Virus record (IMG/VR): IMGVR_UViG_3300010938_000071 | Span: 1-43,020 of that record | DNA: 43,020 nt | Reading direction: 5' to 3' (one strand) | Source: a virus | Shown: positions 1,112 through 8,905 of the stretch, piece after piece | Layout of the letters: each line of letters begins with the position of its first letter | How positions within the stretch are numbered: position 1 is the first letter of the stretch | Notes under the pieces: model-generated | The model's input: only the letters and a program-made list of their open reading frames with translations | Databases searched by the model: none | Told to the model about the DNA's origin: nothing | Translations under genes and position numbers: made by a program

Positions 1112-1395
1112 GTTTTTCTTCCTTTCTGGATTATCTCCTTTAGAGCTCCATCAAAACCTTCGCCCTGTTCGTCATACCAATATCCCCACGGGTGGATCTT
1201 ACCATCATTTAGCATAGCAAGCTCCTCCCTATAATCAAGGCCATTGCTGTCTGTTATTGCCATGAGGATTTGTGGGAGCCATACTTCGGGAGCTCTGTCC
1301 ACCTCTATGGTCAGCTTATTCCCTTTCTCTTTGATGTGGAACTTACATTTGACTTGCTTCCTTCTGTCATATACGGCTATTTCTTTGTCAATCAT
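1108..1395 (-). CDS. Hypothetical protein (95 aa)
   Basis: ATG at 1393-1395 overlaps the stop of the helicase gene (ATGA), and AGGAGGAAAAAGCC precedes it. The protein is soluble, starting with beta-strand-like segments (residues 5-35) and ending in a short helix. It is rich in Trp, Tyr and Gly around residue 70. No family recognised. Tight coupling to the helicase suggests co-expression with replication proteins, and nothing further can be said. Confidence 0.75.
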   Translation of the reverse strand: MIDKEIAVYDRRKQVKCKFHIKEKGNKLTIEVDRAPEVWLPQILMAITDSNGLDYREELAMLNDGKIHPWGYWYDEQGEGFDGALKEIIQKGRKT

Positions 1396-3359
1396 GGCTT
1401 TTTCCTCCTTGGCTTCTTAGGAACCTCTTCATCATCTGGTATCTCCTCTAGCCGGAACAGACGACACACATACTCCCACCGGGCTGGGTCTATACCCGGA
1501 GGAGGTGGTGGGGGTATGTAGTCATCCTCATCCTCTTTTTCATCCTCTTTGGCCTCCTCTAGCTTCTCAGGTAATTGGCCAGAGTCATCCCTGAGGGGGG
1601 GGTCTAGAGGAAACTCCTCGGCCTCTAGGGCATCTAGCTCCTCAGCTAGGGAGGGGCCATTAGGGCTATTTGGGCGATTAGGCGATTTGGAGCTCTCTTC
1701 GTTGTCAGGACTTGTTTTTGTAATCGCCCTCTCTGAGCTCTCAGTTGGGCGATTAGGGCGATTTGGGCTATCTGGGCTATCTGGGTTATTTGTCTCAGAC
1801 CCAGGGGGGGTAAATTCAAATCGCCCAAATCGCCCGGTAGTCTCAGAAGACCCCTCTTGGAAATCCGCATTGTTATTAGGGTTCCCCAAATCGCCCAAAT
1901 CGCCCTTATATATATAAGGGGCGATTAGGCGATTTGGATCGTTTCCATTCCCGGAACGGGGATGATATACGAACCCCCTAGGGATTTCCTCACGGCGAAG
2001 TAAAGCTACTTTCTTCTCCTTGGGGTTGCCCCGGCCTATCCGTGGAACATAACCGGCCATGGCCAGGCGTTCCCAGGTATCGCGGTATAGTTTCTCAGGG
2101 ACCCCCTCACTCTTTAGCTTGGCTTTGAGGTCAGATACCAGCATGCCCTCTGTCCCGGCCTCAAGGAGGGTCTCTATGATTACCTCCGCGGCATGTCTCT
2201 GTTCCTCAGTCGTGAGGCTTGCCACACTCTCCACAGAGGCCCCTTCCCACATGAAGCCCTCTGGAGTAATCCGAAAGCTGAGAGGTCGGATAAGGCTCAT
2301 ATCCTTGTAGTTGCACTTGACAATCCGCATTGTCCTTTCCCCGGTCAGGGGGTCTTGCTCTATTCCTATCACTGAGCGAGCTTTTGCTCTGAAGTCCACA
2401 GAACCCAGGATAGGATCGCCGCTTGATTTAGGCTTGTGGTAAAGAGCCAGGACCCCGGCGCCAGGAAAAGCCCTGTCCAGGATGTTTAAAGCTTCTCTCA
2501 CTTCATTAGCCCGGTTAATATCTATTCGTCCCGGAAAGAATGATTGTAAGCTGTCCAGGATGATGAGATCGGGTTGGAGCTTCTGGCCTATCTCACACCA
2601 CCTAGCCTCCTGATCCGGAACAAGGAGAAGGCCTAGGGGTTCTGAGGGGACTAGAATGTTGTCGCCTATCTTGGAGATGTCCACGCCTATTGCGTCTAGG
2701 CGGTTTCTCAGAATTCCGGCCGCGTCCTCAGTGGAGATAATTACTACACGCCCCCCTTGAGAAGCCACAAAAGCCGCCATGGCCAACGCGGCCCAGGTTT
2801 TCCCTGAGCCGGGATGACCGCTCATAATCGTGAGGCCATTCCGCGGTATCCAGTCTTCCACAACCCATTGCGGGGTCTCAGGTTCCACATGGGACATGGG
2901 GATGAATTCCTCAGTCTTTTCATAACCCGCAAAAAATTGCCGAGTGGCCTCAGACAGCTTAGTAAAAGCCTCGGTGAGACAAGACTTATCTTCATGCTTA
3001 GCGGCCTGGATGATATTATTGGCCGTGCGGATGATCTGATAACGATACCGGCGCCTGAGCAGGGCTTCAATATACTCATCCACCTGACGCGCTGATATTA
3101 CATAATCCTGAAGCTGAGCCAGGTATTCACGGCCTCCTATGGCTTGAAGCCACCCGCGGCGTTCCAGCTCCTCTACTATCTCTGTTATATCAGGGGTCTT
3201 GTTCCCGTTATCATAGAGGGCCTGTATAGCTTGAAATATCAACTTCTCAGCTTGGCCCCCTATATCATCTATGGATATGGCCTCTATTACGCGCGGGCAC
3301 TCCTCAGGATACACGAGGAGTGTTCCTATGAGAGCTTGTTCGGTGGGGTTTGTCTTCAT
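1392..3359 (-). CDS. Replicative helicase: DnaB-type N-terminal domain plus RecA-fold ATPase
   Basis: 655 residues. Residues 1-145 look like the DnaB N-terminal helical domain (start Thr-Glu-Gln-Ala-Leu-Ile-Gly, then Gly-Gly-x2-Tyr-Leu). Residues 165-375 are a RepA/KaiC-type RecA-fold ATPase with Walker A GHPGSGKT at 181-188 and Walker B LIILDS at 265-270. A winged-helix-like segment follows (385-455). The C-terminal 190 residues are low-complexity, with Ser-Pro-Asn-Arg-Pro repeats and a poly-Pro run. In that tail the DNA itself is an array of AAATCGCCC iterons, resembling the lambdoid arrangement of an origin inside the replication-protein gene. It is coupled to the RuvC-like gene upstream (ATGA). 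It probably unwinds phage DNA and recruits host primase and polymerase. Domain calls are by motif; the tail's role is inference. Confidence 0.85.
   Translation of the reverse strand: MKTNPTEQALIGTLLVYPEECPRVIEAISIDDIGGQAEKLIFQAIQALYDNGNKTPDITEIVEELERRGWLQAIGGREYLAQLQDYVISARQVDEYIEALLRRRYRYQIIRTANNIIQAAKHEDKSCLTEAFTKLSEATRQFFAGYEKTEEFIPMSHVEPETPQWVVEDWIPRNGLTIMSGHPGSGKTWAALAMAAFVASQGGRVVIISTEDAAGILRNRLDAIGVDISKIGDNILVPSEPLGLLLVPDQEARWCEIGQKLQPDLIILDSLQSFFPGRIDINRANEVREALNILDRAFPGAGVLALYHKPKSSGDPILGSVDFRAKARSVIGIEQDPLTGERTMRIVKCNYKDMSLIRPLSFRITPEGFMWEGASVESVASLTTEEQRHAAEVIIETLLEAGTEGMLVSDLKAKLKSEGVPEKLYRDTWERLAMAGYVPRIGRGNPKEKKVALLRREEIPRGFVYHPRSGNGNDPNRLIAPYIYKGDLGDLGNPNNNADFQEGSSETTGRFGRFEFTPPGSETNNPDSPDSPNRPNRPTESSERAITKTSPDNEESSKSPNRPNSPNGPSLAEELDALEAEEFPLDPPLRDDSGQLPEKLEEAKEDEKEDEDDYIPPPPPPGIDPARWEYVCRLFRLEEIPDDEEVPKKPRRKKP
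1659..1938. repeat. Iteron array with AT-rich palindrome inside the helicase gene (candidate replication origin)
   Basis: At least nine copies of a 9-10 bp unit (AAATCGCCC or its complement GGGCGATTT, some degenerate as GGGCTATCT) occur in four clusters: 1659-1690, 1745-1792, 1818-1837 and 1886-1938. The last cluster is an inverted repeat with arms of about 20 bp around TTATATATATAA. Units are direct in some clusters and inverted in others, as in initiator-bound origins. All lie in codons for the low-complexity tail of the helicase. Origin function is inferred from architecture. Confidence 0.6.
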
Positions 3360-3925
3360 GGTATCCTCCTCTCCATGTTTAGCAGGCCCTCACCATACCG
3401 GGCAATCAGATAAGCGTCCCGGATATGTTCACGAGCCTGGATGTAGCTTCCTTCTCTGTTTATGAAAATATCATACATATCATTCCATAATCCCTTATCT
3501 CTCATTTCCCACTCAAATATACGCCAGAGAGCTTCATCTGAGGCCCGGCGTCCTCCTATGGCCTCACGCCATTTACGAGGTTCCACGAGATTTATGGCCC
3601 TTATGCGATGTGCTAGGAACCAGTGATGTAGCATTCCTGCATAAAACGAGCACTTAGCCAGTGGGGCTACATTCATAGCCTTTTCCCCTGTCCTAGCCCA
3701 ACCCTCCCAGGGAACTTCAAGGTATATCACCACAGAATTCCAGCACAGGAAATCCTCTATATTACTCCTCTCATATTTCTCATATCTGTTATGCCAGATA
3801 ATACCTAGTTCCTTAGGAGCCGGGATATCTGTCTTCCCCTCAGTGAGAAGGAGAAGCTCCTCCTGGCATATGACAGCAATCCCTGTCGTGAGGCCAGGGT
3901 CAACACCTATGATGATCTCAGACAT
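3356..3925 (-). CDS. RuvC-like Holliday-junction resolvase (RNase H fold)
   Basis: 189 residues from ATG 3923-3925 behind AAGGA. Residues 4-10 (IIIGVDPG core) carry the first-strand Asp9. A second acidic residue follows a strand at Glu70 (IYLEVPW), and His167-Ile-Arg-Asp170-Ala-Tyr gives the C-terminal acidic residue. This is the layout of RuvC-type nucleases that cut four-way junctions with metal ions. A longer start at 4006 (27 extra Ser/Arg-rich residues, overlapping the upstream stop) is possible but adds no recognisable fold. It is placed directly after the annealing-protein genes and before the helicase, which fits recombination-dependent replication or debranching before packaging. Confidence 0.8.
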   Translation of the reverse strand: MSEIIIGVDPGLTTGIAVICQEELLLLTEGKTDIPAPKELGIIWHNRYEKYERSNIEDFLCWNSVVIYLEVPWEGWARTGEKAMNVAPLAKCSFYAGMLHHWFLAHRIRAINLVEPRKWREAIGGRRASDEALWRIFEWEMRDKGLWNDMYDIFINREGSYIQAREHIRDAYLIARYGEGLLNMERRIP

Positions 3926-4002
3926 GCTATTCCTTAAATCCCTCAGGGACCGGGGGTTGGACCCGGTTCCCCTGAAAGAGGAGGTTAAAGATGAAAGGGC
4001 GG

Positions 4003-4446
4003 TCATATTTCCCTTTCAGCTCTTTCCCTCTCCTTTTCCAGGGTTCTGAGATAAGAGAGGAGTGTGTCCCTAAGGCCCTCAAGACGAGCCTCCAAAGCCT
4101 CCCAGAGCTTGAACCGGCCATAGCTCTCATTGAGCCGGCCGTTTGTGAGATATTTCAGTTCTGCGGCCGCGGTCGCCGAATTGAGAGGCTTCCCATCTGG
4201 TCCGGTTGCTATGAGGGCCTGATAGTTCATAGTTTCTTGCTCTCGTTTGGCTATCTCAGCTTTGGCCCTTTCCTGGCTCGCAAAGGCCAGGTAGCCCTCA
4301 CAAGCTAACATAGTGTCCGCCACCTCCGACGGAGACTGGGAGTTTATGAGGGCTACAGCACCTAGAATGAACCGGCCTATGCCAGGAATGAGCCGGTCAA
4401 AGTCCTCTAGACCAGGTTGAGGCAAGATTATCCGTTTTTCACTCAT
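4003..4446 (-). CDS. Hypothetical helical protein in the recombination cluster (147 aa)
   Basis: The start at ATG 4444-4446 overlaps the stop of the Rad52-like gene by 8 bp, with a G-rich ribosome site upstream. The protein is almost entirely helical. Residues 65-147 are charged and heptad-like, typical of a coiled coil. No cysteines or nuclease motifs are visible. Its place between the annealing protein and the RuvC-like nuclease makes a recombination accessory role (end-protection or loading factor) plausible, but no family is recognised. Confidence 0.7.
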   Translation of the reverse strand: MSEKRIILPQPGLEDFDRLIPGIGRFILGAVALINSQSPSEVADTMLACEGYLAFASQERAKAEIAKREQETMNYQALIATGPDGKPLNSATAAAELKYLTNGRLNESYGRFKLWEALEARLEGLRDTLLSYLRTLEKERERAEREI

Positions 4447-5074
4447 CTTTGTTCCCCCATGATGGTTTGATGTTATGTTCATCGCACCATTTAATAAAAG
4501 CTGAGGCCTCGGCCATCGTCATCCCCCTTTTCATCTGTTCGCGGAATTTATGTAATTCCCATTCCCACATCTTCTCTATCTCAGGATTTGCTTTTATGGT
4601 GCGGCCTAAAGCCGCTATCAGATTTATCTGTTTTACAGTTGCCATTGGCTTCTCAGGTGTTTTTTCCTCGTCTTCATTCTGGCCTTGGCCTAGCAAGCCC
4701 ATATAGGCCTTTTCACCTACTCCTATCACGGAGAGGGCCTTTTCTAGAGCGTTCGTGATTGCCCCTTTCAGGGCCTCACCGGCCGCGGTATTAGACCTGC
4801 TATTCCCGGCATGCTGTAGAGTTATCACCTCGCCGTCTGGAGTTCGTAGCGTGGCCTCTACAACGGCCCATGCTGTCCATGACTTGTCTTCTTTGGATTC
4901 AGCATGCTCTAGAATTCGTGTGAGTCGGATAATACCTCCGGCCTCTCTGACAGCCCGGAAAACATAAGCCGGGCTATAACCCCACAGGGTATCATAGCCC
5001 GCGTCATATTTCTGGATAGCCTCCGAGCCATAACTGTCCAGAAGCTCGTTGACCTTTTTTATGAATTCATTCAT
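4439..5074 (-). CDS. Rad52-like single-strand annealing protein
   Basis: 211 residues from ATG 5072-5074. Residues 69-114 contain a beta-hairpin followed by Gly-Glu-Ala-Leu-Lys-Gly-Ala-Ile-Thr-Asn-Ala-Leu-Glu-Lys-Ala-Leu, then Gly-Val-Gly. This closely resembles the Ala-x-Lys-Gly-Ala-x-Thr-Asp-Ala-Leu-Lys-Arg-Ala helix of Rad52/Sak-type phage recombinases. Residues 140-210 form a separate helical tail that resembles the C-terminal tail seen on several such proteins. It would anneal complementary single strands during replication and repair. No partner exonuclease is visible nearby. It is ATGA-coupled to an upstream 69-residue paralogue of its own core, which is unusual. The assignment is by motif. 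Confidence 0.75.
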   Translation of the reverse strand: MNEFIKKVNELLDSYGSEAIQKYDAGYDTLWGYSPAYVFRAVREAGGIIRLTRILEHAESKEDKSWTAWAVVEATLRTPDGEVITLQHAGNSRSNTAAGEALKGAITNALEKALSVIGVGEKAYMGLLGQGQNEDEEKTPEKPMATVKQINLIAALGRTIKANPEIEKMWEWELHKFREQMKRGMTMAEASAFIKWCDEHNIKPSWGNKDE

Positions 5075-5280
5075 GATGTTTTTACCTCCCTTTCTACCCT
5101 TTCTAGAAGGCCATCTGCAGACATGGCCTTCTCCGCGGCCCTCTCCACAGCTCCACGGATAGCTTCTATCCCCTCTGTAGAGCTGTGGTCTCCTGTATAG
5201 CATATTGTCATCTCCCCCCCGTTCGGGGTTTTGATGACGACTCTTATGCTAGCTACTGCCAACCATCTTCTTTCTGTCAT
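5071..5280 (-). CDS. Miniature paralogue of the Rad52-like core (69 aa)
   Basis: Residues 9-53 align almost gap-free with residues 69-114 of the neighbouring annealing protein: a strand ending Lys-Thr-Pro-Asn-Gly-Gly, a second strand Met-Thr-Ile-Cys-Tyr, then Glu-Ala-Ile-Arg-Gly-Ala-Val-Glu-Arg-Ala-Ala-Glu-Lys-Ala. The protein therefore carries the hairpin and DNA-groove helix of a Rad52-type fold without the rest of the domain. It overlaps the full-length gene by 4 bp (ATGA), so the two are made together. It could cap or mix into the annealing ring, or be a duplication remnant. The open frame, ribosome site (AAGGAGGTGTAAG) and coupling argue that it is expressed. Confidence 0.75.
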   Translation of the reverse strand: MTERRWLAVASIRVVIKTPNGGEMTICYTGDHSSTEGIEAIRGAVERAAEKAMSADGLLERVEREVKTS

Positions 5281-5292
5281 CTTACACCTCCT

Positions 5293-5499
5293 TTATCTTG
5301 CGTTCCCGGTCTCATCGTTGTGGCCGGGGACGGTTATGGGTCTCGTCGTTATAGGGTCTATTTCAATTCTTGCCCCACAAAGAGGGCAAGAAACATAGGC
5401 CCGACAATCTTCGTGCCGGGCCTGATACCATACACCCTCAGGCCGGACGACCCGTTGGCACTGAGGGCAATAAACCTGTCTCTCTTTTTTCTGTTTCAT
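5293..5499 (-). CDS. Zinc-ribbon protein (68 aa)
   Basis: Two Cys-x2-Cys knuckles (CPQC near residue 11, CPLC near residue 38) separated by about 25 residues form a classical zinc ribbon, with a basic N-terminus (Lys-Gln-Lys-Lys-Glu-Arg). Such ribbons usually bind nucleic acid or another protein. It overlaps the upstream gene by 4 bp and precedes the annealing-protein pair in TU1. The specific function is unknown. Confidence 0.75.
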   Translation of the reverse strand: MKQKKERQVYCPQCQRVVRPEGVWYQARHEDCRAYVSCPLCGARIEIDPITTRPITVPGHNDETGNAR

Positions 5500-7967: not shown

Positions 7968-8191
7968 ATCAGACCTCCTAGCCACTGACCAACCGCCTTA
8001 GCCCTCCATAAGTAATAGCGGGGCCAGGATTTGAACCTGGAACCTTCGGATAATGAATCCGGTGAGCTACCTGATTGCTCTACCCCGCTATTTTCGTCCA
8101 AGACTAGGATAACCTCCTGATCGGCCATATTCGTGTAGGCTTTCATGGCCTCAGAGGGGGTCATCTGAGCTATGAACAATAGCCAAACCAT
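7958..8191 (-). CDS. Short reading frame that contains the tRNA gene (candidate leaderless gene, 77 aa)
   Basis: The ATG at 8189-8191 lies exactly 6 nt after the TATACT -10 element, the same leaderless spacing seen at the regulator and terminase genes. The first 35 residues look protein-like (Met-Thr-Pro-Ser-Glu-Ala, Asp-Gln-Glu-Val-Ile-Leu-Val-Leu-Asp-Glu). The frame then runs through the entire same-strand tRNA and stops at 7958, overlapping the amidase start by 10 bp. Either it is translated and tRNA processing competes with translation, or the open frame is chance. The sequence cannot decide. Confidence 0.35.
   Translation of the reverse strand: MVWLLFIAQMTPSEAMKAYTNMADQEVILVLDENSGVEQSGSSPDSLSEGSRFKSWPRYYLWRAKAVGQWLGGLIWR
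8016..8089 (-). tRNA. tRNA-Met-like (anticodon CAT)
   Basis: A 74-nt cloverleaf: acceptor AGCGGGG/CCCCGCT (7 bp), D-arm GAGC/GCTC with GG in the loop, anticodon arm CCGGA-TTCATTA-TCCGA (4 pairs plus a C.A at 27-43), T-arm CCAGG-TTCAAAT-CCTGG, discriminator A, no encoded CCA. The sequence strongly resembles bacterial initiator tRNA. However, position 1-72 is paired, the anticodon stem lacks the full three G-C pairs of initiators, and position 37 is U rather than a purine. It is therefore a diverged initiator-derived tRNA that may act as an elongator or a non-translational element. Confidence 0.85.
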
Positions 8192-8197
8192 ACTCAT

Positions 8198-8227
8198 AGT
8201 ATAAACCTTTCATATGGTCTAGTTCAA
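8198..8227 (-). promoter_or_regulatory. Promoter of TU2 (tRNA and lysis genes)
   Basis: The minus strand reads TTGAAC (8222-8227), an 18-bp spacer, then TATACT (8198-8203). The predicted start near 8191 coincides with an ATG. A paired iteron (8247-8267) lies 19 bp upstream of the -35 box, a place where a bound protein could activate or repress. Confidence 0.7.
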
Positions 8228-8246
8228 CCCGGTGCCACTTAGCTTT

Positions 8247-8267
8247 CAATCGCCCCAATCGCCCTTA
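8247..8267. promoter_or_regulatory. Paired iteron next to the TU2 promoter
   Basis: Two tandem AATCGCCC units (AATCGCCCC then AATCGCCC, followed by TTA) match the iteron clusters at 1818-1837 and 1886-1906. It lies outside any gene, so the match is not forced by coding. Likely a binding site for the same protein. Confidence 0.55.
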
Positions 8268-8309
8268 GTCCGGCTACTTAAGGATAGCTAGTCTAGAGCT
8301 GGTTAGCTA

Positions 8310-8585
8310 TAAAAAAAGAAAAAGAAAAGAGAAGCTCTAAGAGAAGAAGCTCTTAAAAGGCTCTAAGGAAAAGAAGCTCTAAAAGGAATAAGAAATACCT
8401 AGAGTAAGCTCTCTTAAGTAAGGATAAGATAGGTTCTTAGGTAAGTAAGAGTAAGCTCTTAGGTAAGGATGTTCTCAGGCTCAGGTGAGAATAGTTTCTT
8501 AGGTGAGGATGTTCTGGTGAGGATGATTTCCCAGGTTTTCTCAGGTGGGTTTTCTCAGGTGAGAGTAATTTCTCAGGTGAGGATA
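8310..8585. repeat. Degenerate direct-repeat region
   Basis: Non-coding. The left part repeats AAGCTCTAA/AAGCTCTTA four or more times in a purine-rich context. The middle shifts to TTCTTAGGTAAG, and the right part has about six imperfect copies of TTCTCAGGTGAGGATG, each near 16 bp. The gradual drift from one variant to the next suggests growth by repeat slippage. It may be a second origin, a packaging or partition site, or an untranslated transcript. No promoter clearly drives it. Confidence 0.6.
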
Positions 8586-8609
8586 GGGGGTGGGGGGAGG
8601 CGGGGTGGG
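8586..8609 (+). other. G-quadruplex-forming motif
   Basis: Four G-runs of five, six, four and three residues are separated by loops of 1, 4 and 1 nt, meeting the usual G4 pattern. The last run also pairs with CCACCCC at about 8621-8627 to form an alternative hairpin. It sits at the end of the repeat region, with no gene nearby. Confidence 0.6.
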
Positions 8610-8905
8610 AAAGACTTTCTCCACCCCCTCCTATTCGGTTTTGGTTTTACGCTTCTGGCCTCAGTTTCCGTGGTTGGAACAGGTGAATTAACATAATAGG
8701 TATTATGTAAGGCAATATGGCCTAAGTGCCTATCTGACATATACTTAGGCTAGTTTTCAATGAGATAAAGTAAAGTGAGAGAAGGGTTCTCATTAACGAG
8801 AGCAACCCTAGGAGCAATAGCTAGGAGCAATAGCTAGGAGCAATGGCAATAGCTAGAATATTATGGCTAGAGATAACCGAGAGATAATCCAAAAAAACAA
8901 AAAAA
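8610..8905. other. Non-coding region with palindrome and tandem repeat
   Basis: Contents: a 16-bp palindromic site CATAATAGGTATTATG (8692-8707); an inverted pair GCCTAAGT/ACTTAGGC (8723-8753); and three tandem 13-bp units ctaggagcaatag (8808-8846, third with one change). I see no gene or convincing promoter. The palindromes are operator-like. Confidence 0.5.

Follow-up and report, generated by a model that had tools for sequence, protein, structure and literature searches.

The alpha primase-helicase of P4, with its ori/crr, is a helicase-type initiator that carries a C-terminal origin-binding domain, and the repA genes of N15 and PY54 encode helicase-type initiators with the origin located within the replication gene itself. 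RSF1010 (RepA/RepC/oriV) combines a RecA-type hexameric helicase with an iteron origin in which the iterons, about 20 bp long and outside repA, are bound by a separate protein, RepC. PICI origins lie 3' to the initiator gene and have an AT-rich region with a set of iterons on either side (PMC6092414), the C-terminal domain of Cch2 binds its own origin (PMC7581432), and lambdoid origins lie inside gene O, with iterons and an AT-rich tract in the initiator coding sequence (PMC7466680). An iteron origin that is read by a helicase initiator and located at or in the gene of that helicase is an already known kind.

We have analysed the whole of IMG/VR virus record IMGVR_UViG_3300010938_000071 (43,020 nt, hereafter the window), which has a direct terminal repeat of 55 bp. 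Its map was taken as circular, about 42,965 bp, because a related contig, L009, is collinear across the window ends (L009 7963 corresponds to window 611 and L009 8295 to window 42946). Judging from the portal, terminase and amidase matches found elsewhere in the window, this is a tailed bacteriophage. Many of its small ORFs are without annotation. An earlier note on this DNA had placed iterons and a candidate origin inside the helicase gene, at 1659-1938, and the coordinates proved right. We interpret this array as the phage replication origin, with iterons that a winged helix would bind, an A/T element that would melt and a helicase that would be loaded there, and we give this reading, made from sequence comparison, a probability of roughly 0.78. 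The helicase gene is made up of the following parts:

1392-3359, minus strand: replicative helicase gene, 655 aa (Pfam DnaB 9.5e-18, AAA_25 1.2e-22; PHROG 19 DnaB-like helicase 1e-25)
3060-3344, minus strand: DnaB-like N-terminal domain, residues 6-100 (Pfam)
2421-2888, minus strand: AAA_25 motor domain, residues 158-313 (Pfam)
1965-2237, minus strand: predicted winged-helix DNA-binding domain, residues 375-465, proposed iteron reader (AF2 and Foldseek)
1647-1964, minus strand: iteron-encoded low-complexity linker, residues 466-571 (comparison with L009)
1425-1646, minus strand: C-terminal segment kept in the relative, residues 572-645 (74% identical in L009, dN/dS 0.30)

The protein is thus laid out as a DnaB N-terminal domain, an AAA_25 (RecA-type) motor, a predicted winged helix, the iteron-encoded linker and a conserved C-terminal peptide. 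The last ca. 75 residues are again conserved in L009, which makes the array internal to the ORF and not part of a read-through tail. This C-terminal segment (1425-1646), beyond the array, contains the motif PPPPPP-G-x-DPAxWEYxCRLFxLEEIPDD and is perhaps a partner-binding peptide. For the winged helix, an AF2 model of residues 374-463 gave three helices and short strands (pLDDT 71), and Foldseek with the AF2 fragment of ca. 90 residues matched mostly winged-helix proteins, but at E > 0.03. The AF2 model of the full-length helicase was poor (pLDDT 48.6), Pfam returned nothing above its cut-off for the winged-helix region of the window, and the hhalign comparison of this region with the corresponding domain of the relatives described below was not significant (P = 0.17). 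The neighbouring gene (3356-4006) is Holliday-junction resolvase-like by PHROG comparison.

The array lies deep within the ORF, about 280-545 bp before the stop and about 1.4 kb from the start codon. Its 7-bp core, AATCGCC, occurs 11 times at 1673-1934 and only 3 times in the other 42.7 kb. The features of the array, together with an outlying pair, are:

1663-1671: degenerate unit AAATAGCCC, beside the following pair
1673-1687, minus strand: iterons 1673-1679 and 1681-1687, 8-bp spacing (core matches)
1722-1728, plus strand: isolated iteron (core match)
1748-1763, minus strand: iterons 1748-1754 and 1757-1763 (core matches), followed by degenerate GGGCTATCT units up to 1789
1819-1834, plus strand: iterons 1819-1825 and 1828-1834 (core matches)
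1889-1904, plus strand: left iteron pair of the central palindrome, 1889-1895 and 1898-1904 (core matches)
1906-1917, no strand: central A/T element TTATATATATAA, candidate unwinding element, between the facing iteron pairs
1920-1934, minus strand: right iteron pair of the central palindrome, 1920-1926 and 1928-1934 (core matches)
8247-8264, plus strand: outlying tandem iteron pair CAATCGCCCCAATCGCCC (unit matches), in a non-coding stretch

The exact AAATCGCCC is present in five copies in the array region (1673-1934). When one mismatch was allowed, the window contained 23 matches against 9.98 expected (the largest of 100 shuffles had 18), and 12 of the 23 fell in the single 280-bp stretch 1659-1938. 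Between the two iteron sets at 1889-1934, which face one another, is TTATATATATAA; no other 12-mer of the helicase gene is pure A/T. The gapped inverted pattern AATCGCC-n-AATCGCC-n-GGCGATT was found four times in the window and never in 100 shuffles. The earlier description of this arrangement needs some adjustment. The four clusters are there as pairs or triplets, but with an isolated unit besides (1663-1688, 1721-1729, 1747-1764, 1818-1835 and 1888-1935); the spacing varies, being 8 or 9 bp; and the inverted repeat, described as near-perfect with arms of about 20 bp, is a palindrome at 1886-1937 with arms of 26 nt, of which 21 are complementary because one side is spaced at 9 bp and the other at 8 bp. 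Both orientations are represented among the units, and so are all three reading frames of the helicase gene, with the result that a single DNA word encodes NRPN, GDLG, GRFG, KSPN, RAIT or LIAP in different places.

This leads to the question of what is under selection, the DNA or the peptide. When the tail was re-encoded synonymously or permuted 20,000 times, the mean was 0.8-1.0 units and the maximum 6, against the 11 observed. The close relative L009 (99.8% identical to another contig, L049, over 9.9 kb) has a helicase 85% identical to that of the window over residues 1-459, and its array consists of 17 units where the same control reached a maximum of 8. All the units of L009 and L049 are CAATCGCC, where the window has A or T at the first position; they also include two facing pairs with A/T centres, and their frames are shifted with respect to the window. 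In the aligned tail, 66 of 74 unit bases are identical between the window and L009 (89%), compared with 245 of 340 other bases (72%; z about 3.1). The peptide encoded by the linker is 62% identical, with 64 gap columns and a dN/dS of 0.43, whereas the helicase core is 85% identical with a dN/dS of 0.13. L009 retains the DNA sites, changed in concert, while the peptide varies, and the check on relatives proposed in the earlier note thus speaks for a tail peptide shaped by the DNA site. An array kept while frames and peptides differ means that it is the DNA, and not the peptide, that is conserved.

Outside the helicase gene, the CAATCGCCCCAATCGCCC pair at 8247-8264 matches the unit type of L009 and lies upstream of a leftward ORF; it is possibly, from its sequence and location, a second binding site, a control region or a rival origin. 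The L009 contig ends before the counterpart of this region. The non-coding stretch around the pair (about 8198-8862, 0.6 kb) also holds purine-rich repeats (TCTCAGGTGAGGAT and AAGCTCTTAGG), and a tRNA-Met gene is located nearby (8015-8090). Cumulative GC skew, proposed as a check on the origin, lent no support: after detrending, the extremes fell at 39.4 and 20.6 kb and none near 1.9 kb, probably because most genes are on one strand.

A scan of 84,980 genomes for the gapped palindrome yielded 107 matches, mostly due to chance, with two leads, L107 (AAA_25) and L168 (DUF3987). L107, from Sedimenticola, codes for an AAA_25 helicase whose last ca. 75 residues are winged-helix-like, with CAATCGCC repeats after the stop codon. 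As L107 had been picked through its repeats, the search onward was done by protein only, for AAA_25 helicases with a predicted winged helix at their end. In this way 369 genomes provided L180-L183 (about 40% identity), plasmid records provided L185 and the more distant L188, and an alignment-based search of viral proteins provided L189-L198. No members came from a single-protein viral search with L107, and no further ones from phylum-wide samples queried with alignment A4 or L183. Leaving out L196, in which the contig ends, there were 15 protein-found helicases with readable 3' ends. In the relatives, arrays were scanned for from the end of the winged helix, in place of a fixed interval around the stop codon that missed the upstream array of the window.

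In 13 of these 15, belonging to phages, prophages and plasmids, the winged-helix codons are closely followed by a repeat array, which is located at the 3' end of the gene. Against 300-500 dinucleotide shuffles, 12 of the arrays had p values of about 0.002 or below and L180 had p = 0.018; the 3' repeats of L197 and L198 were not significant in this comparison. For most arrays no other segment of the locus matches their unit count, L185 being the exception because its unit has also expanded to over 30 copies downstream. The position relative to the stop codon varies: the array straddles it in L181, L185, L189 and L191-L195, is wholly within the tail codons in L180, L182 and L183, and comes after the stop in L107, L188 and L190. 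The window is the extreme internal case. The recurrence of arrays at the same position of the gene in protein-found AAA_25 helicases, together with their persistence in L009 and L049, strengthens the proposal of a candidate origin in the helicase gene.

From element to element the units vary (ATTGCGCG, ACCTCGCC, ATTGCGCC, ATTCCGCC, ACCTCGCG, GCGTCACC, ATCCCGCC, TTGGTGCG, ACCCTCGC, ACTGCGCC, AATCCGCC and AACCCGGC), and these mostly fit the scaffold A-NNN-CGC[C/G], as does the AAATCGCC of the window. The gap between facing units is 23 bp in the window and 20-28 bp in the group, usually around CCTATAGGGAAA or a related box. A CTATAG box stands in the relatives where the window has TTATATATATAA, and CTATAG was observed nine times in their 3' regions, where the remainder of these loci would predict 0.43. 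Unit similarity tracks winged-helix similarity (Mantel p = 0.008, 13 sequences), but not significantly beyond the relatedness of the motor domains (partial Mantel p = 0.12, 13 sequences). In several of the relatives the helicase is joined to a primase domain (Prim-Pol, PriCT_2 or Toprim_3), a feature that would be expected of replication initiators. The helicase of the window is distant from the other aligned helicases (19-28% identity), and its DnaB-N architecture is not shared by the L107/L182 group; the protein searches found no relative of the window at middle distance, and the 3' array is absent from the more distant DnaB-N/AAA_25 helicases L056, L061, L063 and L186.

Some of these loci have peculiarities of their own. 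In the Methylomagnum plasmid pRS11DPr4 (NZ_AP019787.1, L185), the iteron CGCGAGGT is repeated over 30 times with an exact 18-bp period at 4880-5481, just downstream of the helicase, within an annotated 'hypothetical protein' (WP_221067450.1, REVGGL repeats); to judge from the sequence this is a hyper-expanded iteron array annotated as a gene. The AAA_25 helicase is the only annotated primase or helicase in the (incomplete) gene table of this plasmid. In Vibrio phage 1.123.O (L056:2296-2554) five CCGCGAGG units, one of them beside TATATAGGGAG and with GTAAGTGCTTGAT-like repeats interspersed, form a non-coding cluster upstream of a DnaB-like gene and not at its 3' end. There are also 3' iteron arrays at primase-helicases of other families: L055:8365-8740 (Prim-Pol, partly inside the tail codons), L168:377-599 (matching DUF3987) and L053:2356-2585 (grouped with it), and L028:2663-2785 (DUF5906/NrS-1-like). 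The rule of an array at the 3' end may reach beyond AAA_25 helicases, with the proviso that these four loci are weaker evidence because they were chosen by their unit pattern. An exact 18-mer scan of viral contigs was of little use, as its 37 matches were mostly an unrelated recurring coding motif ('...AAGGCAGAAATCGCCCAAATCGCCCAGCAA...'), and only L026 and L028 resembled non-coding repeat sites. AAATCGCCCAAATCGCCC, a fixed coding motif of a common viral contig family (most of L011-L047) unrelated to the array, is a trap for motif searches of this sort. L026:11980-12560 is AT-rich, with TCGCCCAA and AGGCAAAA arrays in both orientations upstream of a gene for a small HTH_17 protein, and looks like another iteron or regulatory site.

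The most likely situation is an iteron origin read by the helicase's own winged helix. The newly made helicase would bind the 8-9 bp AATCGCC iterons via the predicted winged helix that precedes the iteron-encoded linker, and the oppositely oriented sets would put two helicase assemblies face to face around TTATATATATAA. The A/T element would then melt, the helicase rings would load themselves and replication would leave the site. Since the 3' codons that would spell out the origin come directly behind the codons of its reader, origin and specificity would be inherited together.

There are other possible explanations for the array. One would be that it is indeed an origin, but that some other protein of the phage or of the host reads its iterons, the helicase being brought in as a second step on the model of lambda O and P. 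The DnaB-like N-terminal domain is typical of helicases that need loading, hhalign and Foldseek support the winged helix of the window weakly, and there are many unannotated small ORFs; still, the arrays of the relatives directly follow the winged-helix codons of the helicase, also in plasmid pRS11DPr4, and neither a loader nor a distinct initiator could be recognised in the scanned ORFs of the window, so we regard this alternative as unlikely, if worth bearing in mind. It appears improbable to us that the array is a cluster of operators, bound by the helicase or a repressor so as to regulate how the replication operon is transcribed and not how replication starts. Iterons do commonly double as control sites, and the non-coding tandem pair at 8247-8264, upstream of a leftward ORF, would suit such a role, but the main array is about 1.4 kb from the start codon, those of the relatives are located where the gene ends or beyond it, an operator would not usually consist of iterons that face each other around an A/T box, and the window ORFs scanned yielded no clear repressor.

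The two remaining explanations we consider very improbable. Centromeres bound by ribbon-helix-helix (RHH) proteins consist of short contiguous repeats in both orientations, which the array resembles, and a partition site bound by an RHH or ParB-like protein might be suspected also from the presence of ParA and RHH genes in one relative plasmid. These genes are, though, about 10 kb from the array of the Methylomagnum plasmid, which adjoins the helicase gene; the recurrent neighbour of the arrays is always the helicase, and ParA, ParB and RHH proteins were not detected among the window ORFs scanned. The other is that there is no binding function at all, the array being selfish or slippage-born tandem repeats or a low-complexity tail selected as peptide. 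Other tandem repeats are in fact present in the window, and the L185 unit has expanded to over 30 copies with its 18-bp period; but slippage does not yield two orientations, three frames and interrupted positions, the synonymous controls reject selection on the peptide, the unit bases are conserved while the tail drifts, and independent elements have arrays in the corresponding place of the gene, with a central box in common.

More tentatively, and with somewhat less than an even chance in our opinion, there could be a widespread and undescribed class of phage and plasmid replicons with the origin in or behind the 3' codons of an AAA_25 initiator helicase, in which the middle of the common scaffold A-NNN-CGC[C/G] would be changeable and set the specificity for the winged helix of the same element, with melting or priming taking place at a near-universal CTATAGGG box. 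In such replicons the origin would be passed on jointly with its reader, and a change of specificity would involve both, which would produce built-in incompatibility groups. For most phages and many plasmids the location of the origin is not known, nor can it be read from sequence. Looking directly downstream of the codons for a helicase's winged helix, for an 8-bp repeat that faces itself across CTATAGGG, would be a rule for predicting origins in many uncultured phages, and one testable at the bench, where recoding alters the DNA and not the protein. We found no paper joining AAA_25 and iterons in the open-access literature, and no description, in the part of it that was searched, of the AAA_25/RecA-type version, of an array within the gene that is followed by a conserved peptide, or of the scaffold plus CTATAGGG box shared by phages and plasmids.

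Compared with the described systems, P4 alpha and N15/PY54 repA differ from the window in motor architecture. Much closer are the SaPI/PICI Rep-ori and SCCmec Cch2, in which the initiator is likewise a helicase with a C-terminal DNA-binding domain, here predicted (PMC7581432, PMC6092414). The SaPI/PICI Rep-ori also has short iterons in two sets around an AT-rich element, and there too the origin goes with the 3' end of the gene for the helicase. The differences are that the motor of SaPI Rep and Cch/Cch2 is DUF927 or D5/Primase_Cterm whereas that of the window is AAA_25 (RecA-type) with a DnaB N-domain, that their origin is immediately 3' of the helicase gene whereas the array of the window is inside the ORF with a conserved C-terminal peptide beyond, and that SaPI/PICI are satellite islands whereas the window is an element of a tailed phage. 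The present phage and plasmid arrays, where the helicase is of another type, appear to be either a counter-example or a product of convergence. The analogy with lambda, drawn in the earlier note, holds in that the iterons are inside the initiator coding sequence in both, but lambda has direct-repeat iterons on one side of the AT-rich tract whereas the window has 8-9 bp units in both orientations with the A/T element between them. Moreover, lambda O is not a helicase whereas the gene of the window is, and the SaPI/PICI Rep-ori, with a helicase that is its own iteron reader, is the closer parallel.
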